In this document: positions 15,575 through 61,100 of the stretch, piece after piece
How the letters are laid out: the number at the start of each line of letters is the position of its first letter
How positions within the stretch are numbered: the first letter of the stretch is position 1
DNA from: a filamentous cyanobacterium ESFC-1
GTDB taxonomy: Bacteria; Cyanobacteriota; Cyanobacteriia; Cyanobacteriales; Spirulinaceae
Direction of reading: 5' to 3'
NCBI GenBank assembly: GCA_000380225.1
Contig: KB904821.1
Span: forward strand, 4,522,938-4,586,937
DNA: 64,000 nt
Translations under genes and position numbers: made by a program
The notes under the pieces: model-generated
Seen by the model: the letters and a program-made list of their open reading frames with translations, nothing else
Databases searched by the model: none
What the model was told of the DNA's origin: nothing

Positions 15575-18427
15575 TTAACGCTGCCCCATGACGGTAAAAC
15601 CCGCCCAGTCTTTCGGTTCGGGATGGGTTTCTTTAATCGTCAGCATTGCCTGTCGCAACGCCTGCGCCTTGTCGGGAGTATTTTGCAGATTTTGATAAAA
15701 TTCCGTCATTAGGTCGGCTGTGGGGGCATCAGGGACGTTCCAGAGGGAGATTAACACGGTGGGTACACCGGCGTTGATGAAGGCGCGGGATAAGCCGACG
15801 ATGCCATCGCTGGTGACTCGTCCGAGTCCGGTTTGGCAGGCACTCAGGACAGCGAGATCGGCGGAAAGTTGCATATTGTAGATTTCTTGGGCGGTGAGGA
15901 GTCCGTCGTTGGCAGTGTTGAGGGGGTTTTGGGGGTCGTATTCGGGGTCTGAAGCGAGGGCAATAGCGCCGAGGTTGTTGTTGACAATACTGCCTTGGAA
16001 GCCGTCTAAAAGTCCGTGGGTGGCGAAGTGCAGGAGTTTGGCGCGGGGCATTTGGCGAGTGATGGCGGTTTCGCTGGCATCTGCACCGAGGATGGGGCGA
16101 CTATCGAGGAGTTTGGCGATGGTTTCGGCTTCTCGTTCGGTGTGGGGGAGAGGGTCGAAGCTTTCCACTCGTTCTAGGCGGATGTCGTAATATTGCGGCA
16201 TGGTGGGGTTGCCGATGATGAGGGTGTTTTCGCCTTGGAAAGTGCTTGGTTTGGGTTTTCGAGTGGTGGACAGGAGTTGGATGGAGGGGGAAGTGGAAAT
16301 GGTATGGCTCTCGATGAGGTATTGCCCGGAGGCATCCATGAGGGCGGGGAAGGGGACGAAAAAGAGGTCGCGGTCGGGGATGAAGATGACGGAGGCTTCG
16401 GGGTTTGTGGGGAGGAGGTCGGCGATGGGGTCGATGAGAATTTGATGGAGTTCTTTTAGGTGTTCTTCCCCTCGCTGGCTTTTGCCCAAGGGATTGAAGC
16501 GTCCTCTGGTTTGTCCAGTGGTCGAGTTTTGGCTTTGGGAAACCAGTTGACCCAAGGGGGTTTGGGGGGTTTGGGATTGGGGAGTTGCGCTACGACTGGC
16601 AACGATTTGACGGCTTTGGCTGAGGGTGAGGAGGAGTCCGGTGAGGCTGATGAGGGTAAGGGTGGAGAAGGCAAGGGATCGGCGGTAGGGGCGTTTTTCG
16701 GGGTTGCCGTAGATGAAGGGATAGATGGAGGCAATACCACTTATAGCAAAAATGGGCAGGAGTAAATAGATGACAATCAGGTTGTAGGGGTTGATGTATC
16801 GTTCCCAGAAGTTTTGGAATTGGATTACAGTCCGGTTTGGGGTTGGGATGGGTTGAGAAAAACGATCCCAAAGATGTTTGAGATCGGTGGAACGAAAGGT
16901 AATCTTGCCATTGGGTTGAATGACCCAGATATAGAGTTCGGATTCTTTAACTTGTTCTCTCCCTTCAATTTGGAACTCATCAAAAATCACTGCATATTCA
17001 ACTAGGGTAGCGTTTTGTTCCTTCGCAGTTTGTTTCAGGTCTTCAACTGTGGGAAGTTTGGGAGTGATATTTTGTTTGACGCTCAATTGTTCGATTAACG
17101 AGCGAGTCCGTCCCCACTCTGAAACAGTTAAGGCTTCTTCGGGTTGGTTGAGGGCAATGAGAGTTTTTTGTAAGGTGTTATAGGTATTCTTTTGTGTTTC
17201 AAATATACTAATTCTCTGGTTATCGGATAAACCTTGCCGCAACGTTTCCTGTACTTGAATGCCTTGACGAAGGAAAATTTCCGCTTCCTTGGGTTGACCC
17301 GATTTGAGGAATACAACACCTAAATTGTTTAAAGAAGCAGCTTCACCCTGTCTGTCTCCAATTTGGCGGTCAATTTCCAGAGATTGCTGGTGGAAAGCGA
17401 TCGCTTGTTGGTACTCTCCCAAGGAATCGTAAACATTGCCTAAACTGCCTAAAGAAGCAGCTTCACCCCGTCTATCCCCAATTTGGCGTTGAATTTCGAG
17501 AGATTGATCGTAGAAAGCGATCGCTTGTTGGTACTCTCCCAAGTAACTGTAAGCATTCCCTAAATTACCTAAAGAACTAGCTTCACCCCCTCTATCCCCA
17601 ATTTGGCGTGTAATTTCGAGAGATTGCTGGTAGAAAGCGATCGCTTTTTGGTATTCTCCCAAGGAATAGTAAACATTCCCTAAACCGTTTAAAGAACTAG
17701 CGTCACCCCCTCTATCCCCAATTTGGCGTGTAATTTCGAGAGATTGCTGCTGGAAAGAGATCGCTTGTTGGTACTCTCCCAAGGAAAAGTAAGCATTCCC
17801 TAAATTACCTAAAGAACCAGCTTCACCCCGTCTATCCCCAATCTGGCGTTTAATTTCGAGAGATTGCTGCTGGAATGCGATCGCTTGTTGGTATTCTCCC
17901 AAGGAATAGTAAACATTCCCTAAATCGTTTAAAGAAGCAGCTTCACCCTGTCTATCCCCAATTTGGCGTGTAATTTCGAGAGATTGCTGGAGGAAAGCGA
18001 TCGCTTGTTGGTATTCTCCCAAGGAATAGTAAACAACGCCTAAACTGTTTAAAGAACCAGCTTCACCCTGTCTGTCCCCAATTTGGCGTTGAATTTCGAG
18101 AGATTGATCGTAGAAAGCGATCGCTTTTTGGTATTCTCCCAAGGAATCGTAAGCAATCCCTAAATTACCTAAAGAAGCAGCTTCACCCTGTCTATTTCCA
18201 ATTCTTTGATAAATCTTTAATGCTGCTTCCCAAGACTGCAACGCCTCTCGAAACTGACTGGTATTAAACTGCTCAATTCCCTGCTCATGTAATCGATCGC
18301 CTTCTATCTTCAAATCAGCTTCACTCTGCGCCAATAATACTGTTTCCCCCCGCACCGGAGACACCACCGCACCCGCACCCAGTCCCATCAACACCGCCAA
18401 ACCAGCAATAGCCAAGCGCCTCATCAT
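15575..18427 (-). CDS. Secreted TPR-CHAT protein with membrane helices inserted before the CHAT core
   Basis: The 950 residues start with a signal peptide (about 1-28). Some nine tetratricopeptide units follow at about 35-420; seven are near-identical 40-residue repeats around SLGEYQQAIAF. A CHAT (caspase-like, HetF-associated) region follows, with catalytic His804 in HFATHG and Cys864 in LSACQTG. Two strongly hydrophobic helices (about 545-570 and 580-605) split the CHAT region, which is unusual. HIP1 occurs at the same place in most TPR units, encoding Ala-Ile-Ala. A regulated protease at the cell envelope is inferred. The next minus-strand gene upstream is a lipoprotein gene, 65 bases away. 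Confidence 0.9.
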   Translation of the reverse strand: MMRRLAIAGLAVLMGLGAGAVVSPVRGETVLLAQSEADLKIEGDRLHEQGIEQFNTSQFREALQSWEAALKIYQRIGNRQGEAASLGNLGIAYDSLGEYQKAIAFYDQSLEIQRQIGDRQGEAGSLNSLGVVYYSLGEYQQAIAFLQQSLEITRQIGDRQGEAASLNDLGNVYYSLGEYQQAIAFQQQSLEIKRQIGDRRGEAGSLGNLGNAYFSLGEYQQAISFQQQSLEITRQIGDRGGDASSLNGLGNVYYSLGEYQKAIAFYQQSLEITRQIGDRGGEASSLGNLGNAYSYLGEYQQAIAFYDQSLEIQRQIGDRRGEAASLGSLGNVYDSLGEYQQAIAFHQQSLEIDRQIGDRQGEAASLNNLGVVFLKSGQPKEAEIFLRQGIQVQETLRQGLSDNQRISIFETQKNTYNTLQKTLIALNQPEEALTVSEWGRTRSLIEQLSVKQNITPKLPTVEDLKQTAKEQNATLVEYAVIFDEFQIEGREQVKESELYIWVIQPNGKITFRSTDLKHLWDRFSQPIPTPNRTVIQFQNFWERYINPYNLIVIYLLLPIFAISGIASIYPFIYGNPEKRPYRRSLAFSTLTLISLTGLLLTLSQSRQIVASRSATPQSQTPQTPLGQLVSQSQNSTTGQTRGRFNPLGKSQRGEEHLKELHQILIDPIADLLPTNPEASVIFIPDRDLFFVPFPALMDASGQYLIESHTISTSPSIQLLSTTRKPKPSTFQGENTLIIGNPTMPQYYDIRLERVESFDPLPHTEREAETIAKLLDSRPILGADASETAITRQMPRAKLLHFATHGLLDGFQGSIVNNNLGAIALASDPEYDPQNPLNTANDGLLTAQEIYNMQLSADLAVLSACQTGLGRVTSDGIVGLSRAFINAGVPTVLISLWNVPDAPTADLMTEFYQNLQNTPDKAQALRQAMLTIKETHPEPKDWAGFTVMGQR

Positions 18428-23841: not shown

Positions 23842-24714
23842 TTAGCCCATCTCTTGAGACTCAGGAAATGCGGTGGGAGGGGGTTTGATGTTGCTGTATT
23901 CTTCTTTTTGCAGTTCGGCTTCGAGTAAATCTTCGTCTTCTTCTTCGTCGGCTTCGTCACTGTCAACGAGGGTCATAAAGTCATCGAAAGTGGTAGTATT
24001 TTTATTTGGGAATGCGCCTGAGTAGGCTTCGGGGGTTAATGCTTCGTCTTCTGCCAGTAAATCCTCAACTGAACCTAAATCTTCTTGTTTTCTGCGGACT
24101 CTTGGGGAATCTTGGAAGGGCAATTCGGGGGATTTGTGGGGGATTTCGGGGGTGAGTCCCATACCCATTTCGACTTGTTCGAGCCGTTGTTGGATATGCT
24201 GGAGTTGCGATCGCAACTTCAGCATATCTTGAGAATTGACCCCACTTTGAGAGAGTTGCTGCACTTGTTCTTGCAGTTGAGCGATTTGGCTCATGTATTG
24301 GGCTTCTTGGTGCAATATCGCTTCTTGTTGCGCTTGGGAACTTTGTAAGTCTGTGTTGAGTTCTCCCAATGTGGTCTGTAACTGCTGAATTTCGGCTTGA
24401 GAGGGGACGGTATTGGTTTTTTGGATGATTTGGGGTAATTGTGATAAAACGCTCTCTAACCCCGGTAATTGGGCGATGAGGGGTAATGTGACCTCAAGAT
24501 GTTGCTGAACTTCAGCCACTTCTCGGTGAAAGCGTCGGACTTGTTGGGAAAGGTATTGACGCGAGAGAAAGCTAATCAACAGCCAAATGGCGATGGGGAT
24601 GAGTGCATAAAGGCTTTGATTGAAAATGACGCTGATGATAATTCCGGCGGTGGTGGCCGCGATCGCGGCATATTCAGCTAGTTTAAAGATAACTTGGCGA
24701 TCGCGATCGCTCAT
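23842..24714 (-). CDS. Membrane-anchored coiled-coil protein, unknown function
   Basis: The 290-residue product starts MSDRDRQVIFKLAEYA with two adjacent membrane helices (about 12-32 and 36-52). A long coiled coil of Gln/Leu/Glu heptads follows (about 60-190), then a disordered, very acidic C-terminus containing EADEEEDEDLLEAEL. I do not recognise a family; such proteins are common cyanobacterial hypotheticals. The ATG at 24714, five codons inside the longest frame, has a strong GGAGGGG upstream and is chosen as start. It is 37 bases upstream of cbiX on the same strand. Confidence 0.7.
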   Translation of the reverse strand: MSDRDRQVIFKLAEYAAIAATTAGIIISVIFNQSLYALIPIAIWLLISFLSRQYLSQQVRRFHREVAEVQQHLEVTLPLIAQLPGLESVLSQLPQIIQKTNTVPSQAEIQQLQTTLGELNTDLQSSQAQQEAILHQEAQYMSQIAQLQEQVQQLSQSGVNSQDMLKLRSQLQHIQQRLEQVEMGMGLTPEIPHKSPELPFQDSPRVRRKQEDLGSVEDLLAEDEALTPEAYSGAFPNKNTTTFDDFMTLVDSDEADEEEDEDLLEAELQKEEYSNIKPPPTAFPESQEMG

Positions 24715-24770
24715 CGTTTCCCCTCCCAAATTCGTATTGTCTTAGTTTAGCAGCGAGCCGGTTTTTCAGT

Positions 24771-25820: not shown

Positions 25821-28190
25821 TTAATTTTCAATCAACACTTTTGCTATTTTCTGCAATAAAGATGATTGGCTATTATCACTAATCTTAAGGATATTTTGAG
25901 TCAAGGTACTGAAATGCAAAGCAGCTAGAGGATGTTCAATGAGTTGAGATGTGGAAATAGATTCTCCTGAATATTCTTTGCCAATCAAATGATAAACTCT
26001 AAATCCTTTCTTAATTATTCTTTCAAGATTTTTTCCGGGTGGAACAAAGTACTGAATAAATAATTCATTTTGTAAATCTAGACAGATTATATTTTGAATT
26101 GTCTTGAGAGGTTTGAGTTCGCTATTAAAATAAGAGACTATGGGTAATAATTTGCTACTGTTTTCTCCTTGTCTAACACGATTGATTTGCAAAGTTTCAT
26201 TCTCTAACTCTTGAATTATATTATGTCGCCCTATTAGTATAGGCGTAAAATTATCGCTTGTATAACAACTCATGTATAGTTGTTCAGATTCATCGACAAA
26301 ATACTGTTGGTCGTTAATTAACTTTTCAGAATTGTTTCTTTGTCTTCTTAAGAATCTAAATTTTCGTTTAATTTTATTAATATCTCGCAGGACATCTTGG
26401 AGATAAATACGAGCATTTTTATAAAGAAATTGTACTGCTACTGCTTGAGTCTCCCTATTCCTAGGGCTTCTTACATAGATCGTCCAAAATTCTTTTTCAG
26501 ACAATAGTTGAGAATTGATAGGTAAAAAACAATCAGTATCAGAAAAACTTTGTTTTATCCAACTTTTTATCCCTATTTCAATTAAAATTTTTTCTAACTC
26601 AGGAGTAATTTTAAGTTTGTATTTTTTACAAAAATCATCCCATGCTTCGCTATTATTTTGCTGACTTAGATAAGAAGCTAAGTAATCCTCTACTTCTAAA
26701 TATTGTCCCTTAGAAAAAGTTAGACAATCTTGCCTAAGTTCATCTATATTTATGCTGGAATGATAGTTAAAAACCGCAAAACTTGTTTCCTGTTCATTTT
26801 GACGATTTTGTTTTGCTTTTTGTACTATTTTAAACTCAGGCAAATTTAGACCTTGAACACTATAAAATTCACCCTTATCCAAATAGTTGTATTTATTTTT
26901 TAGTTGTGAATAGAAATCGATTTGCGCTTTTTTTTCTAATTGAGTGGACGGACACCACAAGCCATCCTCTCTTCGATAAGCCATAGAGCCTACTTCTTCT
27001 TCTAAAAGTTTATTAAAGATTAAGTAGTTTTTTGACTTGTTTAATTCAATACTAGACCAAGGGACAACTTCAGTAATTCTCCAGCAAGGATTGCCTTCTT
27101 CATTTTCTACTTTCTTATAGGTACTAATAGTATTACCTGAATGATAAAAAGTTAAAACAGATATTCCCTTATACTTGAAAAACTTGTGTAAAAATTGCTG
27201 TTCTATTTCAGTTAAGTCTATCCCTGTATTGTTGATAATTTCTAAAGATTCTACAGCTTCTATGTTTTTGATAAAAGGATTCTCCAAATAATGGTCAGCC
27301 TGAAAGTCAAGGATTTTAAATTCAATCTTGCATTCTTGTAAGAAATCCTCAAGTTTATTCATCAAGTTTTGATAGTAATAAAGCTGAGTCTTTTGGAATT
27401 TACCGTATTTATCATTATCTGGACGAAAATCCATAAAATTGATCGAATTCGACCGACGAGCATCGCGATCGCGACTATAATAATAATTCTTATCTTTGTA
27501 AATTATTAATTCTCCCAAATCTTCACCATCTACGGTATTGTAATCTTGACGATCCTGTAGAAGGAATTTTCTACTTTTTCGAGTTAGTGTTAAGGTTAAT
27601 ACATTATGGTGATTGTATCTAACCAATAAATTTTGTCCCCATATCAAAAGAGCATCTTTCGATTTAGTCAAGTTTTTAGAATGGAGAAAGAAAAGCTCTT
27701 CAAAGCCTTTGATTGTCTCGCTAGGCAATACAGAAGAAAGAAGATACAATTTAAATACTAGATTAAAAACTCTTTCTTTATTGTCTTCAAATAATCGTTT
27801 CCAACTGGAATTTTGTTTATTTGGAGACAAGAAAAATATATAGGTTTTACTGCTATTACGAGAAAGAAAATACTGTATATCTGAAGATTTTACTTCTTCT
27901 CCATATTGATAAAGTCTTTTTTTTACTTCTTTTTTGATGTATTTGTGTCTTTCTTTGTAAAAATTAGCTTGTGAATCTTCATCAGAAGATTCTGCTTCGG
28001 AAGCATCCCTGTTAGAATTATTATCTTTTTCATCTGTTTTGGGGGGATAATGAAGCTCAAAATATTCGATTCCTTTACCCGCTTTGAAAAGATATTGATA
28101 TAGTTTTTCAGCTATATCTTGCTGCGGTAATATTTTAAGTTGGTTAGTGCGCGATATATCGGATTTTGCTTCAATCAACTGATTTTTCAT
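25821..28190 (-). CDS. Unassigned 789-residue partner of the helicase-nuclease
   Basis: I do not recognise a family. The protein is Lys/Asn/Tyr-rich and largely mixed alpha/beta, with an acidic linker at about 50-75. The centre has a beta-rich portion (VLTLTLTRKSRKFLL; then ISVLTFYHSGNTISTYKK). Near the C-terminus, after the basic KIKRKFRFLRRQR, come strand-like stretches (TIQNIICLDLQNELFIQYF, then GFRVYHLIG) and a final helix beginning HPLAALHFSTLTQNIL. A PIWI/RNase H-like C-terminus is conceivable but unproven. The ATG lies 20 bases inside the helicase gene, implying translational coupling. The gene is AT-rich with one HIP1 site. It probably acts with the helicase in defence. Confidence 0.6.
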   Translation of the reverse strand: MKNQLIEAKSDISRTNQLKILPQQDIAEKLYQYLFKAGKGIEYFELHYPPKTDEKDNNSNRDASEAESSDEDSQANFYKERHKYIKKEVKKRLYQYGEEVKSSDIQYFLSRNSSKTYIFFLSPNKQNSSWKRLFEDNKERVFNLVFKLYLLSSVLPSETIKGFEELFFLHSKNLTKSKDALLIWGQNLLVRYNHHNVLTLTLTRKSRKFLLQDRQDYNTVDGEDLGELIIYKDKNYYYSRDRDARRSNSINFMDFRPDNDKYGKFQKTQLYYYQNLMNKLEDFLQECKIEFKILDFQADHYLENPFIKNIEAVESLEIINNTGIDLTEIEQQFLHKFFKYKGISVLTFYHSGNTISTYKKVENEEGNPCWRITEVVPWSSIELNKSKNYLIFNKLLEEEVGSMAYRREDGLWCPSTQLEKKAQIDFYSQLKNKYNYLDKGEFYSVQGLNLPEFKIVQKAKQNRQNEQETSFAVFNYHSSINIDELRQDCLTFSKGQYLEVEDYLASYLSQQNNSEAWDDFCKKYKLKITPELEKILIEIGIKSWIKQSFSDTDCFLPINSQLLSEKEFWTIYVRSPRNRETQAVAVQFLYKNARIYLQDVLRDINKIKRKFRFLRRQRNNSEKLINDQQYFVDESEQLYMSCYTSDNFTPILIGRHNIIQELENETLQINRVRQGENSSKLLPIVSYFNSELKPLKTIQNIICLDLQNELFIQYFVPPGKNLERIIKKGFRVYHLIGKEYSGESISTSQLIEHPLAALHFSTLTQNILKISDNSQSSLLQKIAKVLIEN

Positions 28191-31100
28191 TTAACTTCTG
28201 GAATAAGAATTTTCTCAAAATAGTGGATTCAACAGGGCAATTCTGGGAGTTGAAATAAATCAAGTTACCAGAATATAAGTTAGCAGAATGCTTGTGACTT
28301 TTTTCTTGACTAGCATGTAGATTTAACAGGAGTCCTTTGACTGCTTTGAATTCTGGATAATATCCAACTATAGCTGCTAGCTTGTCTTGCGCTTTGTCAA
28401 CAGTAGAGTTCGATAAGCGATTTCCCGATACTTGAGTCCAGGCTTTGACATCAATACAGAACAAAACATCATTTTTAACATAATAAAGGTCGAAGCGTTC
28501 GTAGAGTTGGGGATATTTGGTAAAATCCCATAATTGCTCAAAACCGTAACTTTTTTTAATAGCCTTCCATTCTTGTCCTTTAAAAATTATATCTTTAATC
28601 CAGCGCTCTACAAAAGTTTCGCTTAGCGATGGATACAAAACATCGTAAAGAAAGCGAGGACGAGGTATGTAACTATCGAATATGTCTAGTTGCGGGATTA
28701 ATTCATTATACAGTTGGTATATTGAGTCAGTAGAGGCATCCATGCTAATTATATTCCCTTCTAAATCGTAACCTTTAAAGTTGGTTTTTAGATGTTCTGG
28801 ATACAATCGCTGTTTATATGGATATATCCTCTCTCCATGAATGCTATCGCTAATGATTTGAAATGTTTTGCCTTCTTCCTCTACTGAAGCCAAATATGGA
28901 GTCAATTCAGAATACTCGGATTTAGTATAAAACAAAGAGTTAATAAATTCATTCGGTAGTAGCTCAAGTTTTCGCAAATTTTCTAGATATTTAGATGGGC
29001 TTTTAAATACAATTGGATCGCGCAATCCATCCCATACTTTTTTAACATTGAAGTTATTTTTACCTTCGTGAAATAGATCGATCTCCTCTAGCATCGTTGT
29101 TCGGAATTTCTGAAAAGCTATGTCGGCATCGATTTCATCATAGCTATGGTCTTCATAGTTTTTTATAGCTCGCTTTTGCTCTTCTTCTAAGACTTTCGAG
29201 TAAACTTCATAGTTGTTAATAGATAGCTTATCAATTTCCTTTGGCTCTTGTTTTTGTAGATAATTGTAAAAAAGGACTAAGTTTTTTCTAGTTTCTTCGT
29301 TGATAAATATTTTAATAACCTGTGGCTTGAAATACCGTCTTTCCGATCTGCCAATTGCTTGTACAATTGTCTTTCCCAAAAGAATCTGATGTTGTTGATT
29401 GCGAAACATACTAGCTTCTGGTCTACTCAGATATTCATTAAAATCTTTAATTTCAATATTAGATTCGCTAAGGTTGACAATGCTTTTCATCAAAGAAAAA
29501 TGATAAAAAGTAGTGTTTTTATCTGCTTCGGTATCTTTTGACTTTCGAGAAGGCGATTTTACTGCTGTATAGTAGCTGTCCATTAATAAAATTAGAGAAT
29601 CAAAGTCTTTTTCTTTTCCCTGCTGAGTTTTTACTATAGGATTTAGTCCTTTTGAGGCTGACTGGTAAGCAGAAATAAAGAAAATCTTTTCTCCTTCTTT
29701 TTCTACAAGTTCGTCCAAGTAAGTTTTGTTGCTGGTTTTATCGTAATAGTCTTTGTTAAAAGAAGCCTTATATAAAATTAGCTTAATCTGAACGTTACTT
29801 TTATATTTCTTGTGCCGTACTTGTACATAATATATGCTGGGATGTTCTTCTGATTGTTTGAAAATAAAATTGCTACTGTTAACTGCGGAACAATACTCTA
29901 TTAACCTTTTAATCCAGCGTAAACTTTGAGTGAAAGCAATTGTCTCTTTGATTTCATCATCTTCAAAGAGATAAAACAAAAAACGAATGAACTTATGTAG
30001 TTCCTGTTTTTTATAATCTCCCAAGTTACTAATATTTGGTTCTTCTCTCAAGCTGCGAATAAAATCTTTTAATATCTGGCTTTCAAACCTTTCTGATATT
30101 CCTCTGGTCTTGTTATTAGGAAAAGACTCCCAATCTTTACTGAAAAAATCTACTGTGGTATGTCTATGCTGTTTTCTATGGTTTCTAATTTCTTCGCAAA
30201 GATTAACTTCTGATTCGGTCATCACTTGAAAAGAACTTTGACCTGATTCGCGACGTAACTTGTCTTCTAAATAAGACATATCGTAACTGGTCGTCAAATC
30301 GCCACGAATTCCTCCTGTGGCAGAAATTGAAAAAATTACGTTAGTATTATTGACTAACATTGATTTCATCTTATGTTCGGGAGAAGTAAAAATAGTGGTA
30401 CTACCGATAGAAACTTCTCGTAGTGACGAATTTATGAGATTATTTTTAGTGTTTTGATAGCGAGATATTTCTTTGATATTAACAATCGGTTTGTTGCTTT
30501 CATATACATATTGACGATCTAAATACTGGTGTTTAGATTGATCGCTCTGTGTTGCATTCTCTTCATCAGCTTTTTGAACCTTATTGATTTGCTTGGACCA
30601 AATCTCTAAAGCATGAGACTGAGAATCATCGGCATCTATAACATTGGCTAAAATCTTTTTAGTTTTTCCAATTTGCGATCGCATTGCTAAAATTACATAA
30701 ATCAGCTCAGCTACAGAGGTTTTATCCGCTACTCTTTTTTCTGTAATACGAACATGGCCTCCAGATGCTTTACTAAGATATAAATTTTTTAGGGCTTCAA
30801 TATTATAAACATACAAGTTGTTGTAGCAAAATATATTCATGAGATCGTTCCCGATCTGATTATAGAGTTGTTGAGGGATTAATAGACTTCTAGTATTTTC
30901 AAATTGTGCTAATACCTTAGATAGCTTTTCAAAGTTTAAATCAATGGGTGTTTTTTGATTGTCATCATTGGTAATAGCTTTGATATTTACCAGGGCTTCT
31001 TCTATTCCCTTTTTGACTGATATCAAGTTTTGCAAAAAAATCACAGAACTTCCTTCTTCAGAAGTTATTTTTTGATATGTCTTAAGATGTTTGTGTAGTT

Positions 31101-32142
31101 TTGGGTCGAGTATTTTTCCTTTTTCTAGATACTCTTTAAATTCATAAAAAGCACCCTTGTTGCGATCGAGAAAATCCAATAATTCTCGGTTCGAGTGACT
31201 TTTTTCAGAAAAAATTAGGGCAAATTCTCGATAAATTGACGACAGTGCATTATTAATTGCCATTTCTTCAGGAGCAATAATATCAATCTTTTTCTTGAGG
31301 ATGATTTGATAGCCGTCTTCTTGCTCGTCAAACGCTAAAATAAATTTTCTAGAGTTATTGGTATCTTGAGCGATATACTTATTTAAATATTCGCTCTTTT
31401 TAATCCATTGGTTGCCGTTGTGGATAAAATAGGGAATTTGAGTTTCAAATTTATCGTAAGTAAGTAATAGAATACCCGATTTTTCTCTCAAGAGATATAG
31501 AGGAAAAAATATTTTAATTAACTCCGCACATTCAGAGGATAAGTTGTCTTTTTCTAATTCGCATTTTATGTAAAGTTCTAAAAAACTCTCCAGTAAATTA
31601 TTTAGTTCTTGTTTGGCTCTGGTAGTTTCAGATTGCTTATATTTTTCATCTCCTAAACTAAAATTTTTAATGTATTCAAGACGACCAATTACACTTTCTG
31701 CTATTTTAAGTTTTTTCTTATTGTCTTCTGCCCGCTCTCTCGAACAATTTTTTGCTGCTTTTTGCCATAGCTTTGCATTTTTAAGAGTTAAAGGTATCCA
31801 TTTTTTGTAAAACTGAATATATTGGTCTGTCATCTTCATTTCTAAAGAATTTATCGTATAGACGGGAATGTTAGGATATTTCTTTTTAACTCCATTAGGA
31901 ACAGATAAATGACCTCTTAGCGGAGCTATGTAAATACCAATAGTATAAGTCTCTGGATGCTTTTCAATGGTTCGACACATCGCTTCAAAAAACTGGTGTG
32001 TTTTCCCTGAACCCGTGCCATAGTTTATAAGCTTGAATTGGGAATGCTTTTCACGGAAACTCTCTTCGATTGTGTTTAAATAAGAATTTAAGATTTTGTC
32101 GCGGATTAATTCCATTTTCCTATTTTGTTGTGAGTTAGACAT
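28171..32142 (-). CDS. SF2 helicase with C-terminal PD-(D/E)XK-like nuclease domain
   Basis: The 1323 residues carry clear helicase motifs: Walker A GTGSGKT (42-48), motif Ia near IYIAPLRGHLS, motif II DEQED (272-276), motif III SAT (607-609), motif V in FFISAYQSASKGLNP (about 820-835) and motif VI QAIGRSER (928-935). Large inserts separate I from II and especially II from III (some 330 residues). Near the C-terminus ERFDLYYV...CIDVKAW places D1218, D1231 and K1233 as a PD-(D/E)XK active site. It is therefore a nucleic-acid motor plus nuclease in one chain. The gene is AT-rich, almost without HIP1 sites, and overlaps its partner by 20 bases. Horizontal origin and a phage or plasmid defence role are inferred. 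Confidence 0.85.
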   Translation of the reverse strand: MSNSQQNRKMELIRDKILNSYLNTIEESFREKHSQFKLINYGTGSGKTHQFFEAMCRTIEKHPETYTIGIYIAPLRGHLSVPNGVKKKYPNIPVYTINSLEMKMTDQYIQFYKKWIPLTLKNAKLWQKAAKNCSRERAEDNKKKLKIAESVIGRLEYIKNFSLGDEKYKQSETTRAKQELNNLLESFLELYIKCELEKDNLSSECAELIKIFFPLYLLREKSGILLLTYDKFETQIPYFIHNGNQWIKKSEYLNKYIAQDTNNSRKFILAFDEQEDGYQIILKKKIDIIAPEEMAINNALSSIYREFALIFSEKSHSNRELLDFLDRNKGAFYEFKEYLEKGKILDPKLHKHLKTYQKITSEEGSSVIFLQNLISVKKGIEEALVNIKAITNDDNQKTPIDLNFEKLSKVLAQFENTRSLLIPQQLYNQIGNDLMNIFCYNNLYVYNIEALKNLYLSKASGGHVRITEKRVADKTSVAELIYVILAMRSQIGKTKKILANVIDADDSQSHALEIWSKQINKVQKADEENATQSDQSKHQYLDRQYVYESNKPIVNIKEISRYQNTKNNLINSSLREVSIGSTTIFTSPEHKMKSMLVNNTNVIFSISATGGIRGDLTTSYDMSYLEDKLRRESGQSSFQVMTESEVNLCEEIRNHRKQHRHTTVDFFSKDWESFPNNKTRGISERFESQILKDFIRSLREEPNISNLGDYKKQELHKFIRFLFYLFEDDEIKETIAFTQSLRWIKRLIEYCSAVNSSNFIFKQSEEHPSIYYVQVRHKKYKSNVQIKLILYKASFNKDYYDKTSNKTYLDELVEKEGEKIFFISAYQSASKGLNPIVKTQQGKEKDFDSLILLMDSYYTAVKSPSRKSKDTEADKNTTFYHFSLMKSIVNLSESNIEIKDFNEYLSRPEASMFRNQQHQILLGKTIVQAIGRSERRYFKPQVIKIFINEETRKNLVLFYNYLQKQEPKEIDKLSINNYEVYSKVLEEEQKRAIKNYEDHSYDEIDADIAFQKFRTTMLEEIDLFHEGKNNFNVKKVWDGLRDPIVFKSPSKYLENLRKLELLPNEFINSLFYTKSEYSELTPYLASVEEEGKTFQIISDSIHGERIYPYKQRLYPEHLKTNFKGYDLEGNIISMDASTDSIYQLYNELIPQLDIFDSYIPRPRFLYDVLYPSLSETFVERWIKDIIFKGQEWKAIKKSYGFEQLWDFTKYPQLYERFDLYYVKNDVLFCIDVKAWTQVSGNRLSNSTVDKAQDKLAAIVGYYPEFKAVKGLLLNLHASQEKSHKHSANLYSGNLIYFNSQNCPVESTILRKFLFQKLNEKSVD

Positions 32143-32177: not shown

Positions 32178-32405
32178 ATGGTTGACTTCAATACCCCTAC
32201 TACTGCTGATATTCCTGCTTCGGGGGAATGTCCTCAATGTAGTGCGCGTCACTGGCTGAATTACTACTCTGCGGAATTGGCTGAAGCGGGGTTGGTGTGT
32301 GGTGTTTGTTTGGTGCATTATTGCGATGAGGCTGAAACTGAAGAAATTGTGGCTAAGGTGGGGGATTTGAGTTTTGATGGCGATCAATTGTCGGTGAGTC
32401 AGTAA
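32178..32405 (+). CDS. Small zinc-ribbon-like protein
   Basis: The 75 residues contain two CxxC pairs, CPQC near residue 18 and CGVC near residue 41, as in a rubredoxin- or zinc-ribbon-like knuckle, plus an extra Cys after VHY and an acidic C-terminal half. The function is unknown. It is transcribed away from the helicase gene with only 35 bases between starts; a TATAAT at 32165-32170 lies very near the ATG, so the leader would be very short or the real start is downstream. Base composition is richer in GC than the island, so it probably belongs to the ancestral chromosome. Confidence 0.55.
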   Translation: MVDFNTPTTADIPASGECPQCSARHWLNYYSAELAEAGLVCGVCLVHYCDEAETEEIVAKVGDLSFDGDQLSVSQ

Positions 32406-33205: not shown

Positions 33206-34399
33206 TTAAGACAATAAGCCCATTTCTTTTAAACTTTCAGTCAGACGTTGGGCTTCTGGGGGGTTGCTTTCTTGGTAAAGGGCGATCGCGTCCTTGAAGG
33301 CTTCTATACTATTAGGGATGTCACCGAGTTTAAACCATAATACCCCTAAATTTTGATGGGCGGGGGCATAATTGGCATCAAATTTGAGGGCTTTTTGGTA
33401 AAATGCGATCGCGTCTTGATACTGACCTTTATTTTTATAGATCATGCCTAAATTGTAGTGGGCGATCGCGAACTTGGGATCGATTTTTAAGGCTTCTCGA
33501 TACATCCGTTCTGATAAGTTTAATTCCCCCGAATTTTGCAGCAAACTCCCTAAATTGTTATAAGCCCCTAACTTTAACTTCGGTAAAATTGGCTGTTTAA
33601 GGGCGGCTTGATATTGCTTTGCGGCTTGATTTGCATCCCCTTTACGAGCGTAAGCATTCGCAAAATGATAGTGTAATTCAAACTGCAATAATGGCTCATC
33701 CTGACAAAATTTGAGTCCTTGTTGCAGCAACTCAAAACCTTCTTCAATGCGGTTTTCTTGGAGATATAACGCCCCCAATTTACTACATACATAGGCATCT
33801 TGAGGATTCGTGGCTAAAAAGGCTTCCATGGCTTTTTTAGCGCGGTTTAGCTTATCTTTAGCCGCAATTTCCCCCGGTTGATAGCCATAATGTAAAATCG
33901 CAATGGCTGAAATGGAAGTGATTTGCCAATGGGGTTCTTTTTCGATCAGGGCGATCGCGCTATCATCAATACTGGCATGATAAGGCCGGGAAAACTGTAA
34001 ATCGGGATGATTGCGAAACAGCCGCGAAACTAGAGAATAAGGAGATTGGGCTGCACCCACTTCGTAGCGGACTAAATTAATAGCAAGGGTTTGGGGATTC
34101 GCGATCGCGTCTTTGATCTGGGAAACCCCATCTGGCGTTAATCTTTCATCAGCATCCAACACCAAAATCCAATCCCCTTGGACATATTTTAGCGCCTCAT
34201 TCCGGGCTGTCGCAAAGTTATCGCACCAAGCGAAATGATATACTTTTGCCCCCATTTCTGAGGCAATTTCTACGGTTTTATCGGTCGATCCGGTATCTAA
34301 AACAATCATTTCATCCACAAGATTGCGGACAGTTTCTAAACACTGGGGCAGCGATTTTTCCTCGTTTTTAACAATGGCACAAAAGCTAATTTTAGACAT
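33206..34399 (-). CDS. Family 2 glycosyltransferase with C-terminal TPRs
   Basis: Residues 1-190 are a GT-A glycosyltransferase: ISFCAIVKNEEKSLPQCLE opening, IVLDTGSTDKTVEIA for nucleotide binding, and WILVLDADERLTP with the DxD-type metal motif. Residues about 200-395 contain five to six TPRs (for example IAHYNLGMIYKNKGQYQDAI). This architecture is common in cyanobacteria and Clostridia, where TPRs may bind the protein acceptor. The donor and acceptor are unknown; the protein is cytoplasmic or membrane-peripheral. Upstream the next gene on the strand is 53 bases away. Confidence 0.92.
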   Translation of the reverse strand: MSKISFCAIVKNEEKSLPQCLETVRNLVDEMIVLDTGSTDKTVEIASEMGAKVYHFAWCDNFATARNEALKYVQGDWILVLDADERLTPDGVSQIKDAIANPQTLAINLVRYEVGAAQSPYSLVSRLFRNHPDLQFSRPYHASIDDSAIALIEKEPHWQITSISAIAILHYGYQPGEIAAKDKLNRAKKAMEAFLATNPQDAYVCSKLGALYLQENRIEEGFELLQQGLKFCQDEPLLQFELHYHFANAYARKGDANQAAKQYQAALKQPILPKLKLGAYNNLGSLLQNSGELNLSERMYREALKIDPKFAIAHYNLGMIYKNKGQYQDAIAFYQKALKFDANYAPAHQNLGVLWFKLGDIPNSIEAFKDAIALYQESNPPEAQRLTESLKEMGLLS

Positions 34400-54350: not shown

Positions 54351-54698
54351 TTATTGGTTGTCCTCAGTATTTAAGAATGGCTGAATTAAATTAAGCAATT
54401 CAGGAATGCTCGATTGTACAGTAAACCAAACTCGCTTGATATCGACTCCTTCGTAATCGTGAATGAGTTTATCCCTCATACCAGCCATTGCTGTCCAGGG
54501 AATATCAGGGTATTGTTGACGAAAATCGGGCGAAAGTCGCTTGACTGCTTCCCCCAAAATGGCAATTTGATAAAGTACCGCCGATTGGGTTTTGCGATCG
54601 CGACTAAATTCCGCATCATCCATCCCCGCTACAAATTCTAATACCAGTTCTCCCGCTTGAGCAATATCAAGAAGGGAGGCGCGATCGCGAGATTTCAT
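54351..54698 (-). CDS. hepT: HepT-like HEPN domain toxin (DUF86)
   Basis: The 115 residues form a four-helix HEPN protein with the RNase motif R75-x4-H80 in GMRDKLIHDYEGVD, including the HxY tail seen in the HepT family. QIAILGEAVKRLS is the family-typical second helix. HepT proteins are RNases neutralised by the MNT partner through AMP addition at the Tyr of the motif. The start ATG overlaps the stop of the antitoxin gene by four bases (ATGA). Confidence 0.93.
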   Translation of the reverse strand: MKSRDRASLLDIAQAGELVLEFVAGMDDAEFSRDRKTQSAVLYQIAILGEAVKRLSPDFRQQYPDIPWTAMAGMRDKLIHDYEGVDIKRVWFTVQSSIPELLNLIQPFLNTEDNQ

Positions 54699-55012
54699 AG
54701 TTTAGAATAAAACACTTGAGAAGTGTTCAAAATTTCTTGACGGCGAATCCAGTTATGGCTACTTTCAATCGCTGATTTTTCGATTAAATCGACTTTGCGA
54801 TTGACTAATCTTTCTAACTCTTGCTGCATAGTAATGAGATCGGGAATTGTCCACATTGTCTCAGGCTCAAATGTTACCAATACATCCAGGTCGCTGTCGG
54901 GTCGAAAATCGTCTCGCAATACCGAACCAAATAAAGCGAGTTCTGCGATTTGCCATTTGTGACAAAAACGCTGAATCGAATCGCGGGGTAACTCAATATT
55001 TTTTAGTTTCAT
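54695..55012 (-). CDS. mntA: MntA-like nucleotidyltransferase antitoxin
   Basis: The 105 residues are a minimal nucleotidyltransferase: LALFGSVLRDDFRPDSDLDV contains the GS-x10-DxD motif (G29, S30, D41, D43), and a third acidic residue occurs in VDLI. MNT proteins of this type add AMP units to HepT, blocking its RNase. Antitoxin first, toxin second, with four-base overlap, as in the described HepT/MntA systems. A CCGGGG palindrome cluster lies upstream. Confidence 0.93.
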   Translation of the reverse strand: MKLKNIELPRDSIQRFCHKWQIAELALFGSVLRDDFRPDSDLDVLVTFEPETMWTIPDLITMQQELERLVNRKVDLIEKSAIESSHNWIRRQEILNTSQVFYSKL

Positions 55013-55052
55013 CGGCAGTCATTTATCCCTAGACTTAATTGTATCGAAGTCT

Positions 55053-55104
55053 AGAACCCCGGTTTCGCCTAAGTTGCCGGGGTTCTGAGCTAAACCGGGG
55101 TTCT
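55053..55104. repeat. CCCCGG/CCGGGG palindrome, double copy
   Basis: AGAACCCCGG is followed by two CCGGGGTTCT arms (55077-55086 and 55095-55104). It lies five bases from the stop of the giant CHAT gene and probably ends its transcript. It belongs to the family at 51676, 52388, 32451 and 63570. Confidence 0.8.
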
Positions 55105-55109
55105 AATAC

Positions 55110-58100
55110 CTACCCGCCAACCGCATAAAACGCCGCCCAATAATAAGGAGACTGAAACGGTACTTCCTCCGCATCGCGAAGATAGCTTCTCAACGCGACT
55201 TGTACAGTAGGACGCAAACAGGAACTTGCCCAAGTCGTCAAATCGGCTTTAGTTGCCTCTCGTAGCCAGGTTTGGGCGTGTTGGAGGGCGAGGGGGACGG
55301 TTTCGCCCTGTTTGAGGTTTTGGTAGAAGCGAATCATCAGCAGGGCGGTAGAGAGGTCATTCACCGCCCAGAGAGAACTTACCACAGCAGACGCACCCGC
55401 GAGGATAAAGCCACTGGCAAGGCTGATATATTCGTCGGTGGAGTCAAGCTGCACTTGTCCGGTTTCGCAAGCGGAGAGGGTGACAAGGCGACATTCCTGG
55501 AGGTTGAGTTGCAGGATATCGGTGAGGGTGAGGCATTGACCCAAGTCCAGGTAGTTGCCGTTGGCTTGCTCAAGGTAGCGGTTGGGGTTGTCTTGGGGTG
55601 GGGGTGGCGGTAACTCGCTGTTGGCCAGGATGAGGGCAGACAGGAGAGGGTTGTTGAAGTTGAAGTAGCCGTGACAGGAAAAATGAGCGCAGTGGGCGTT
55701 GTCGAGGTTGAGGGCGGCTTTTTGGGCTTCTGCGTGTTTGAGGATGTGGTGGGGGTTGAAGTAGGGTGGCAGGGCTTCTACTTCGATGTCGGTGAAAGCG
55801 AGGTCCTCTGTTGGGTTTTGGATGGCGAAAAGGCGGTCGAAGTCGGGGCGGTGGCGATTTTGGGCTTGTCGCAGGATTTGGCAGTTGGGGGCGTAGCTGA
55901 CTCCTTGGGGAAAGATGTCTTGTAAAAGTTGATTTTCACTTTCAGGGAGAGAGAGGGGTAAGGCGTGGAGGGGGAACAGGTGTAAGAAACGGTGGGGGAT
56001 GAGGATAAGTCGCTTACAGTTAGGAGATTTTTGAAATAGACTCTCTAGAATTTCGTCAATGTGGAGGATGTCAGCGAGGGTTGCGAGGCGTTGGGGAAGG
56101 CTGTTTTGCCATTGAGTTTTGTTAGTGCGGTAGTCGCGGAGATAGGCGTTTGTCCAGTCGATAAGTTGACGGAAATCTTCCCCCGAAGACTGCCAAAGAC
56201 TAATTTCTGATGTTTCTTTAGTCTTTGATTCTGATAAATTGGGTAGAACTGTAAAAGTTAGAATTTGATTTGATACAGAAGATATATACCATTCTATGAC
56301 AGCAGTTTCTTTATCTAACAGCTTGTGAATATCTGGCACAGTCAAAGGTTGATAGGGAGAAAGGCGATTAAATTCCTCCCGTAGTTGATTAAGATAGCTG
56401 GAATTCGACTGAGACGTTTGTTGTAGTCTTTCTTTTTCTTTGGCAATATTTTGGCGAATTTGTTGTAGCTGCAATCGAGTCGCTTCAGGTATATCTGAGC
56501 CGTATAAGTCACGGGCTGCAATCAGTTCTGTTAGGTTTCGGGCTTTGCTGCGGTCGGCATATTCTAGCGCTTTATCATACCGTTTTAATTGAATACAGAC
56601 CCTAACCATTAAGATATAAAGTTCAATCCATTCTTCATTGAGTTTGCGTTTGACTTCATCACCAGAGATAATCTCACCACGCAAGTAATCAACTGTTTCA
56701 ATAGCTTTAGCAAAAGCTTCATAAGCTAAGTGATAAGATTTTGTTTTCCAGTAAACAATTCCTACAAAAAATATAATCTTAGCATATCTATTTGGAAAAG
56801 ATTGATAAGTAAAAACTTGTAATGATTGTTGGTAAAGTGCAATAACTTTTTTAAATTCCTTTTGTTCTAAATAGACATTAGCAAGACATTTCAAACTTTC
56901 AGCCCACCTTTCGGGATGCAAATCACGAGTAAATACTTCTAAACTTTGTTCATAGTGAAACTTTGATTTTTCTAAATAATCTGTAAGATTTTTGTATTTA
57001 AATAAACGAATGTAAGTATCTCCCAGAATCAAATTGACTGTTCCCCAAGACCGAGGGTTAACAGTGGGATTTTTTTGCCAGGCTAAACTTTCTTCTGCGG
57101 CTAAGATAACTTTACTCAAGTTCTCATATTTTTCTCCTGATTTGCGTAGTTTATATGCCTCTGCTAAATTATGTTGTATAGCAGCATATTTTGATGGATA
57201 TTTTTCTGGTTTAAAACTCTTTAATGCATCTCCAAGAGCAGCAATAGCCTTTTCTATATTTTTTCCTTTTTGATCGAATTCACCCGTTAATAAGTAAACA
57301 ACAGAAATACCAATTTTGCAATTAGCCCATTTTTCAGGAAAATCTTGTTTATTATAGATACTTAGAGCGGCTTCATAGGCAGCAATTGATTTTTTGCAAT
57401 TGTCAAATTGATCCCCCTTGACTTGCCAGCTATAAGCTGCTCCAAGATGAGTTTGTGTTTCTGCCCATTTTTCTGGAAATATCTGCTTTGTATAAATTGT
57501 TAAAGCAAGCCGATGATAATCAAGAGCTTTTTCAAGATTATCAGCCATATTGCCTAGGGTGTGTTCCTGATAGATTATTCCTAATAGATTCTGGATTTCT
57601 GCCCATCGTTGAGGATCATTTTGTGGAGAATATATCCTCAAAGATTCTTCAAAAGCAGTTATAGCTTTTTCTCCATATTCCGGGTTATTATATTTCTGAC
57701 TATGAAAATAGGTTGCTGCTATAAAATATTGAATTTCAGCCCATTGCTCGGAAAATTTTTCTAGGGTGTAAATTTCTAAAGCAGCTTGATAACAGCGAAT
57801 CGCTTCACTTAAGAAGTATTCATCTGCCACATCTGATGTTTTGTCTTCTGATATTTTGTTAGTATAGACAACACCTAAACGAAGTTTTATGTCTGCCCAC
57901 TCTTCAGGAAATGCTTCACGAGGGCGAAATTTTAAAGCTGCATTGTAATAATTAATAACCTTCTGTAAATTTTTATTTTGATTTCCTTTGATTCGATTCT
58001 TATAACTATCAGCTAAATTTATTTGTAAACCAACACAGCTTTTTACCCAGGAATTATAGTCGTGAAATTTCCAATTTACATCAGAAGTGACCAGTGCGCC

Positions 58101-61100
58101 TTTAAGCTGGCTTGATTCATCTTCAAGAATTGTCGGAGAATCCAAATCAAAGTTAGTTGCAGCAACCTCATTTTCACTTAGAGTAAGTTGTTTTAAATAA
58201 AACTCTAAGGCATTTTCATAAGCAAGAATCGCTTGTTCTATATTATCTTCTTTCTCTCCTTGAATACGGTCAATATAAGTAAGACCTAAGCTATACTGTA
58301 TACTTGCCCAATCCTCTATATATTCTTCATAAGTGCGAACGATTAAAGCGCTTTTATATGCAGTTATCGCCCTTTCTAAATTTTGTGATTTTTCTCCTCT
58401 AATTCGATCTCTATAAGCATTTCCTAGATTATTTTGCGTCCTTGCCCAATCTTCAGGAAAATCGTTATAGGTACAAACTTGTAAAGCGTTGTTGTAAAAC
58501 AGAATTGCATCTTCTATATTTTGAGATTTAATTCCTTTAACACGACAGTAATATGAAACCCCTAGATTATTTTGGAGCATTGCCCAATCTCTAGGATAGG
58601 TTGGACGATTAAAAACCGCTAGGGCTTTTGTATGATATGCAATCGACCTTTCAATATTTGCAGCTTGATTCCCTTTAATACGGTGTCGGTAAACATTGCC
58701 CAAATCATTTTGAATACCTGCCCAGTCTTCGGGGAAGTCTTCACAAGTATAAACTTTTAAAGCGGCTTCATAATAACGAATTGACTCTTCTAAATTATTT
58801 AATTTATTGCCCTTAATACGTTCTTGATAAACATCGCCTAATTTTTTTTGTGTGTCAGCCCAATCTTGAGGATAATCTTCGCGAGTCAATACAGTTAAAG
58901 CCAGTTTATGAGCCGCAATTGCTTGTTCAATATTATCGGCTTTATTTCCTTCAATCCTTTCTCTATAAGTAAGACCCAGATTATTTTGTATTGCTGACCA
59001 TAATTGCTCAGGACTTGCCTGGGTATAAACATCCGACTGTGTTCGATAGAGATAATTATCGTCAAAGTCTAAAATTAATTTGTACAAGGCAATTGCTTGC
59101 TCAATATTATCGGCTTTATCTCCTCTAACTCTTTTTGAGTAAGCATTCGCTAAACCCAGTTTTGACAGAATCAATAGATGAGGCAATGCTTCACGATTAC
59201 TCACTTCTAAAACAGCTTTATAAGCAGTAATTGCTTGCTCGATGTTATCGGCTTTTTCTCCGAAACTATTATAATTTTTATTTTGATAAATATTTCCTAA
59301 TCCATGTTGAATGGCTGTCCAATCCTCTGGATAGTCTTCACAGTTATAAAATTCTAAAGCAGCTTGGTAGTGACTTAATGCTATTTCTAAATTTTCTGTA
59401 ATATTTCCCACACTTCGTTGATAGTAAATGCCACCCAAGTTCAAATGAACGTTGGCAGAATTTTTGGGATTATCTTGATGGTTATAGACTTCTAAAGCAG
59501 ATTCTAAATGTGCAATTGCTGTTTCAAGATTTTGGGACTTGCTACCTTTGATTCGTTCTGTATATGCAGTTCCTAAGTAACATTGCAACTCTGCCCATTT
59601 CTGAGGATATTTCTCACGAGTTCGGACTTCTAGGGCTGCTGTAAAATAAGAAATTGACTGTTCAATATTTTTAATTCTTCTACCGTTAATGCGTCGATGA
59701 TAAATACATCCTAAATTAACCTGTACCATCGCCCAATCTTTGGGATAAGCTTCACAGGTATAAACTTCTAAAGCTGATTCATAGTAGCGAATAGCAGTTT
59801 CTACGTTTTGCGCTTTATCTCCGGAAACATCATCAGAGTAAATATTGCCTAACCGATTTTGTAAACTCGCCCAATTGAGTGGCTCTGTCTCACGAGTTCT
59901 TACTTCTAAAGCAGCTTGATAACAAGCAATTGCTTGGTTGTAGTTTTCTAGTTTTTTTCCTTCAATTCGCTTTTTATAAGTTCCGCCTAAATTGACCTGT
60001 ACCATCGCCCAATCTTTAGGATAAGCTTCACAGGTATAAACTTCTAAAGCTGATTCATAGTAGCGAATAGCAGTTTCTACGTTTTGCGCTTTATCTCCGG
60101 AAACATCATCAGAGTAAATATTGCCTAACCGATTTTGTAAACTCGCCCAATTGAGTGGCTCTGTCTCACGAGTTCTTACTTCTAAAGCAGCTTGATAACA
60201 AGCAATTGCTTGGTTGTAGTTTTCTAGTTTTTTTCCTTCAATTCGCTTTTTATAAGTTCCGCCTAAATTGACCTGTACCATCGCCCAATCTTTAGGATAA
60301 GCTTCACGGGTATAGACTTTTAAAGCTGCCTTATAATAATTAATAGCCTGTTCAATATTATTGGCTTTATTACCTTGAATTCGTTCCAAATAAGTATTTC
60401 CCAGACGATTTTGTAAACTTGACCATTGATAAGGTAATGCTTCAAAAGTACGTACTTCTAATGCTGCTATATAATAACTGATTGACTGTTCTATATTATT
60501 AGCTTTATTACCTTGAATTCGCTTCCTATATAGATCACCTAAATCAAGTTGAACCGTTGCTTGCTTATATTTTTCTTCTCTTATAGTTATCCAAACTCCA
60601 TCATTTTTTCTCCGAGAACCCAATATATATTGAGCATTATATTTTGTAGAGTTCTCCTCTAAATATACAGCTAACTGCAAAGCTAACTCAAAATATTTAA
60701 TCGCGTTTTCCCATTCTTTTTGGTCATAATACAGACAGCCAATATCATACAAACAAGACTGCTCAGAAACGCGATCGCCCAATTCTCGAACAATCCCTAA
60801 TCGCTGCTGTTGGGATGTAATCGCGTCCTCATATTGTCGTAATTCTCGCTGTAACGTCGCAAGATATTCTAAGCCTTTAGCAGCCCAATCTTTAACCTCT
60901 AGCTCAACATAAAGATTGACGGATTGTTGATAATTGGAAATAGCTATTTCTTTCTGCTCTAAATTAGAGTAACTTGAGCCAAGCATATAATAAGCGTTGG
61001 CTTGATTCTGCTTTTGCTCTAACTCAGTCGCTAAATTTAAAGCTTGATTGAAATATTTAATCGCATTATCCCATTCTTTTAGATCGTTATAAAGATTACC

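Follow-up and report, generated by a model that had tools for sequence, protein, structure and literature searches.

Two overlapping genes lie on the minus strand of a 64,000-nt stretch of the genome of the cyanobacterium ESFC-1 (GCA_000380225.1, contig KB904821.1, positions 4,522,938 to 4,586,937 of the forward strand), hereafter called the window. They encode a superfamily 2 (SF2) helicase joined to a C-terminal nuclease motif, and a partner protein (Table 1). The open reading frame (ORF) coordinates confirm the arrangement described in a first-pass annotation made from the sequence alone, namely two minus-strand genes for 1323 and 789 residues sharing 20 bases, and the residue numbers given there (GTGSGKT, K47, DEQED, SAT, QAIGRSER, D1218, D1231 and K1233) were correct on re-check. 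The overlap suggests that the apsA-like and apsB-like genes may be translationally coupled. Both genes are homologous to those of ApsAB, an antiplasmid system of E. coli ST38 (PMC11096173), and very probably the pair is a cyanobacterial ApsAB that removes plasmids, perhaps also other extrachromosomal DNA.

Table 1. Position of the gene pair and of its conserved features in the window (rows are those of the protein alignments)
Feature	Position	Strand	Basis or conservation
apsA-like gene, 1323 residues	28171..32142	-	PD-(D/E)XK-type nuclease motif C-terminal to an SF2 helicase; matches E. coli ApsA by BLASTP
Walker A GTGSGKT, residues 42-48, K47	31999..32019	-	K47 in 14/14 aligned rows
Helicase motif II DEQED, residues 272-276	31315..31329	-	DE in 9/9 non-E. 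coli rows; 5 E. coli rows gapped in this column, their DELH being placed elsewhere by the alignment
Helicase motif III SAT, residues 607-609	30316..30324	-	14/14 rows
Helicase motif VI QAIGRSER, residues 928-935	29338..29361	-	Q928, R932 and R935 in 14/14 rows; QAVGRVER in ApsA
Nuclease residues E1175, D1218, D1231-V-K1233	28444..28620	-	E1175, D1218, D1231 and K1233 in 14/14 rows
apsB-like gene, 789 residues	25821..28190	-	Argonaute-like partner by homology to ApsB
MID-like motif Y427, K431, Q446-G447, K546	26553..26912	-	Y, K, Q and G in 13/13 rows; fourth residue K in 8/13
C-terminal Glu-Asn, E788, N789	25824..25829	-	13/13 rows; ApsB N743 is aligned with N789
Overlap of the two genes, 20 bases	28171..28190	-	ORF positions

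Homology of the gene pair to ApsAB

The window helicase matches E. coli ApsA with E=2e-21 in a single BLASTP comparison and carries the SF2 motifs and the D...DVK nuclease site of ApsAB. The motifs and the E/D/DVK residues are kept, and the first-pass annotation was right in calling it a helicase-nuclease fusion. When 72,556 plasmid records (7.3 Gb) were searched with this protein by tblastn, two were matched, one an Acidovorax plasmid (2e-27) and the other from E. coli (2e-13); in both, the next gene downstream has a length similar to that of the partner and the same Glu-Asn end. An additional partner fragment was found on an Oceanisphaera plasmid, with no helicase match within the 24 kb fetched.

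The identity of the E. coli homologues was established on a chromosomal pair (locus L007) encoding proteins of 1569 and 743 residues. The first of these has GFGKS at 218-222, DELH at 532-535, SAT at 823-825, QAVGRVER at 1140-1147, D1420 and DVK at 1433-1435, and the second has Y409, K413, Q431G, K489 and N743, in each case the number published for ApsA or ApsB (PMC11096173). Because every published residue sits at its published number, this pair is ApsAB. A tRNA-Leu and an integrase gene are found close to this locus, and the apsAB genes of ST38 are reported in a tRNA-Leu island (PMC11096173).

As for the partner, a single BLASTP comparison with E. coli ApsB gave E=6e-7, and both the MID-like motif Y[X]3K[X]nQG[X]nK and the C-terminal Asn are present in the window protein. 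Circularity was avoided by building separate profiles from seven cyanobacterial partners alone and from five E. coli partners alone; the resulting E-values apply to a small set of ORFs. With the cyanobacterial profile, E-values of 4e-14 to 1.5e-11 were obtained for six E. coli partners, 8e-7 for the Acidovorax partner and 4e-5 for the Oceanisphaera fragment; the E. coli profile recovers cyanobacterial frames from 3e-12, so that each group finds the other. The latter profile is weak on L006 (0.002), on one frame of L033 (0.0015) and on one of L035 (0.08), below the inclusion line. When aligned with hhalign, the two profiles are collinear along 657 columns (E=8e-5), at a probability of only 62%. 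Thus, the helicase-nuclease is homologous to ApsA and the partner to ApsB, and the 789-residue protein, earlier described as being of unknown family, is placed by its relatives in ApsAB, though no PADLOC model detects it. The suggestion that a PIWI/Argonaute-like protein was the nearest idea for this partner appears right, judging from the ApsB homology and the MID-like motif.

Searches of family libraries were negative. With PADLOC 2.0.0, no family was found up to E=1 for six ApsAB-type proteins, namely both proteins of the window, Acidovorax and E. coli pairs. The PADLOC library contains models of Hachiman, Gabija, Zorya, Druantia, DISARM and BREX, and the earlier failure to match the pair to any of these is upheld. 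Pfam and NCBIfam gave no match above cut-off for the window proteins (best, DEAD 0.02 and YhbP 0.019); a sub-threshold match to YraN (0.37) covers residues 1200-1240 of the helicase, where the nuclease motif sits. Searched by sequence against solved structures, the ApsAB-type profiles matched nothing, or only at chance level (for instance, Toll-like receptor at 0.37 and TRIM25 at 0.29). Pfam contains models for pPIWI-RE, the system that the first-pass annotation had named as its nearest idea for the partner; as the partner has no Pfam family up to E=1, this candidate found no support and was rejected, and a literature search on pPIWI-RE gave no paper. The claim of novelty also falls, since the pair belongs to ApsAB, which its discoverers had already reported in cyanobacteria, naming them among the carriers (PMC11096173). 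Literature searches of one open-access library found no other paper on cyanobacterial ApsAB.

Conservation, distribution and genomic setting

Each of the 15 ApsA-type loci outside the window (L003-L011 and L030-L035) is followed directly downstream, on the same strand, by an ApsB-type frame, with a gap of at most about 0.4 kb (L033). Of these partners, eight had served as rows of the profile, that of L004 is almost identical to one of the eight, and the six of L030-L035 are outside the profile. The two genes therefore form a conserved unit, as had been proposed. At the Acidovorax locus, two tandem glyoxalase_8-type proteins, the first below the Pfam cut-off, are encoded upstream (L003, 6600-10189), the second overlapping the pair by a few bases, and a TIR-domain gene lies just downstream; the window operon has no counterpart of the upstream genes. 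Locus L004 (E. coli CP061233.1, 1.0 Mb, labelled as a plasmid) holds island genes that are chromosomal in L007 and an apsA homologue in three frames, of which intact copies occur elsewhere; the record is possibly a mislabelled or error-bearing assembly.

The distribution of the pair in cyanobacteria is patchy. One scan of a genome collection gave matches in Lyngbya aestuarii (80%), the closest copy read, and in a genome bin of Pleurocapsa (69%). From 386 genomes of the phylum, a search with a single sequence returned only the window's own copy, whereas a helicase profile matched 13 of 291 genomes of the same order, seven at full length and six with short matches; the seven include the host, one genome with two copies, and one that is the same contig as the Pleurocapsa bin. 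Either the single-sequence search was too weak or it drew other genomes. The partner search in 39 relatives was positive in the host alone, and among 12 other genomes of the same family the helicase profile gave nothing in 11 and a DdmD-type match only in one. No match was found in 50,697 phage records, and four scans of viral contigs yielded no confirmed relative. Both copies in one genome (L033 and L035, genome G416) have interrupted partner frames, with the helicase interrupted too in L035, and from their sequence look as if they were decaying; many partially deleted systems are reported in E. coli (PMC11096173).

With a search that needs about 85% DNA identity and leaves more distant ApsAB uncounted, 147 of 5426 complete E. 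coli genomes were matched, 141 of them at a place that spans 80% or more of the query. The E. coli copies sit in genomic islands. Two of four further variants adjoin AbiE-type genes and a Shango-like trio of TerB, ATPase and DEAD-helicase genes, one of them with a tRNA-Phe in view, and Shango and AbiE are both named in apsAB islands (PMC11096173). The other two lie in the nanC-fim region, one at no more than 15 kb from type I restriction and TIR genes and the other accompanied by Abi and HNH genes.

In the window, the G+C content of the pair is 0.321 as compared to 0.457 for the rest, and only 2 of the 124 HIP1 sites (GCGATCGC) fall inside it, when 13.4 would be expected from the density elsewhere (Poisson P 1.6e-4, a value that ignores base composition). 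This agrees with the AT richness and scarcity of HIP1 noted in the first-pass annotation. The HIP1 deficit partly restates the AT richness, because the region 54,689-60,770 of the window is also free of HIP1 sites, with a G+C content of 0.35-0.37 over 56-61 kb. At the six other cyanobacterial loci measured, G+C contents are 0.309-0.350 for the pair and 0.391-0.477 for the flanks fetched; values for the pair of 0.643 and 0.461 were obtained in Acidovorax and E. coli, respectively. The AT-rich composition goes with the cyanobacterial version of the pair. The window pair was probably acquired by transfer, and the first-pass annotation was right in noting signs of it. Close copies (E<1e-100) of the left flanking gene occur in 17 of 39 genomes, counting its own, the others having weaker paralogue matches; close copies of the right one occur in 37 of 39. 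In the four relatives carrying both close copies on one contig (G393, G387, G014 and G056) the flanks are separated by about 0.29 to 2.0 Mb, and hence no undisturbed empty-site junction can be demonstrated.

The immediate neighbours of the pair encode a 3-hydroxyisobutyrate-dehydrogenase-type protein and a small glyoxalase-fold protein, with no tRNA or integrase gene seen adjoining. A PADLOC scan of 10 other window proteins, which left out 23842-24729 and 33206-34399, gave TPR, response-regulator and ABC-ATPase matches (strongest, C3a156 at 1.9e-23 and mad3 at 8e-26) that we read as cross-matches. As far as these neighbours and the 10 proteins scanned go, the description of the pair as standing alone between ordinary genes holds. 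Upstream and divergent from the pair is an ORF of 75 residues with CxxC motifs (32178-32405, plus strand), for which the other loci read contain no relative. Further away, a protein of 2524 residues with TPR and CHAT domains is encoded at 55110-62684 on the minus strand, in another largely AT-rich, HIP1-poor stretch, and a second TPR-CHAT gene, at 15575-18427, contains HIP1 sites spaced 120 or 240 bases apart.

Proposed function and alternative explanations

Elimination of plasmids in E. coli requires both apsA and apsB; the substitutions K221A and E533A in the helicase and K413A in the MID region abolish the activity, K1435A in the nuclease has a partial effect, and the plasmids destabilised are IncL pOXA-48 and the p15A, ColE1 and pMB1 types (PMC11096173). 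Both window genes being homologous to ApsAB, with conserved motifs, a fixed gene order and a patchy distribution, we infer that the cyanobacterial pair eliminates plasmids as E. coli ApsAB does. The 789-residue ApsB-like protein would act as an Argonaute-like sensor, whose MID-like pocket may bind the 5′ end of a short guide, if a guide is indeed used, and thereby mark matching DNA. The 1323-residue ApsA-like protein would be recruited to the marked DNA, a step borrowed from DdmDE, would move along it by means of its SF2 motor and would cut it with the C-terminal PD-(D/E)XK nuclease, leading to plasmid loss.

Several observations weigh against this assignment. Both window proteins share only about 21% identity with their E. 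coli counterparts, and the partner alone has no match in the plasmid collection of 72,556 records. The fourth MID position is a lysine in only two of the seven cyanobacterial rows (K546 in the window); K542, present in all seven, is a possible substitute judging from the alignment. AlphaFold2, run on three-row alignments, gave no usable model of the nuclease domain or of the window partner (mean predicted local distance difference test scores of 37.7 and 34.7, respectively). No defence island is seen round the window copy, either from the neighbours read or from the 10 proteins scanned with PADLOC, and the neighbours of six other cyanobacterial copies look, by eye, like mostly housekeeping genes, with a few HNH-, PIN- and Uma2-like frames. 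Finally, two more contigs of the host (135,349 and 64,875 bases), each with a ParA-family match, are probably large plasmids coexisting with the system. ApsAB is reported to spare pSC101 and IncFII/IncFIB plasmids (PMC11096173).

The six short matches in the same-order genomes (L036-L041, six genomes) belong to a second family, with helicases of about 1140-1180 residues. At five of these loci a partner of about 700-780 residues lies next downstream, and the sixth is at a contig end. Solved DdmD and DdmE are matched by the profiles of this family (2e-91 and 8e-22, respectively), and the L038 pair, the only one of them scanned with PADLOC, matches DdmD at 9e-43 and DdmE at 9.5e-6. These loci appear to be DdmDE-like pairs, and would represent a second line of helicase-nuclease and Argonaute-like proteins in cyanobacteria. 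In the host, a search with the DdmD-like profile, run without a positive control, was negative.

Could the window pair itself be a true DdmDE system, in which DdmE, a DNA-guided inactive long Argonaute, works with DdmD? The architecture is the same, and hhalign links the window-type helicase profile with the DdmD-like cyanobacterial family (97%, E=6e-11), over window residues 922-1295, i.e., the C-terminal part only. However, no solved chain, DdmD included, is matched directly by this helicase profile, no PADLOC family detects either window protein, and membership fails on the partner, whose profile reaches 0.6% against the DdmE-like family and matches no solved chain up to E=10. We consider this explanation very improbable; from these profile comparisons, the window helicase is a distant relative of DdmD, with a partner that lacks an apparent sequence link to DdmE. 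Even less credence is given to a new system unrelated to ApsAB, whose partner would be a non-Argonaute-like protein or a pPIWI-RE relative: the partner is matched by no family model and gave no usable AlphaFold2 model, but against this explanation stand its conserved MID-like motif and the homology with ApsB seen with profiles in both directions. More serious, although still improbable, is the explanation that the same ApsAB-derived machinery is aimed mainly at phages. The patchy distribution, the phage-defence-type genes near the E. coli copies and the wide divergence of the window pair from the tested ApsAB would fit with such a target, but ApsAB had no effect on eight E. coli phages and yet removes ColE1, p15A, pMB1 and pOXA-48 plasmids, and a relative with only 28/25% identity still acts on a ColE1 plasmid (PMC11096173). 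The phage-defence role suggested in the first-pass annotation is thus less likely than plasmid removal.

The preferred reading, a plasmid-removing ApsAB, could also take a particular form. The partner without sequence relation to DdmE, the relaxed fourth MID residue and the lack of the N-terminal ApsA extension (see below) might mean that the cyanobacterial branch loads a different guide, with other 5′ chemistry or none, or hits other prey, such as phage or conjugative DNA. That this branch is such a mechanistically distinct subtype is, in our opinion, unlikely; if true, helicase-nucleases of the DdmD/ApsA line would be paired with at least two separate Argonaute-like sensors. A likely plasmid-clearing system is now placed in a cyanobacterium. 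Cyanobacteria are engineered largely with shuttle plasmids, and a knockout could ease the engineering of such strains. The divergence of the pair, and the fact that PADLOC 2.0.0 misses the ApsAB family, add modest interest.

Comparison with known systems

In pPIWI-RE systems an Argonaute-like protein occurs together with a helicase and a nuclease. The window pair differs in that helicase and nuclease are fused, giving two genes, and in that the partner has no Pfam match.

DdmDE of Vibrio cholerae, whose published function is plasmid removal, consists of DdmE, a DNA-guided inactive Argonaute, and DdmD, which is recruited by DdmE, translocates and cuts (PMC12409362). A second source swaps the two names and was not relied on (PMC12904381). 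Common to DdmDE and the window pair are an SF2 helicase, a PD-(D/E)XK nuclease and an Argonaute-like partner, with helicases distantly related by profile; on the other hand, the partners have no sequence relation and the window proteins go undetected by the DdmD and DdmE models.

Compared to ApsAB of E. coli ST38, the window ApsA is devoid of the N-terminal extension of about 175 residues, so that its Walker lysine is at position 47 instead of 221, and the cyanobacterial partners carry extra segments and a variable fourth MID residue; the identity is about 21%, and furthermore, neither tRNA nor integrase is seen beside the window copy. Nevertheless, the two systems are two-gene operons of the same order and homologous in both proteins, and have in common the helicase motifs, the E/D/DVK nuclease residues, the Y-K-QG-K MID-like motif and the C-terminal Asn.

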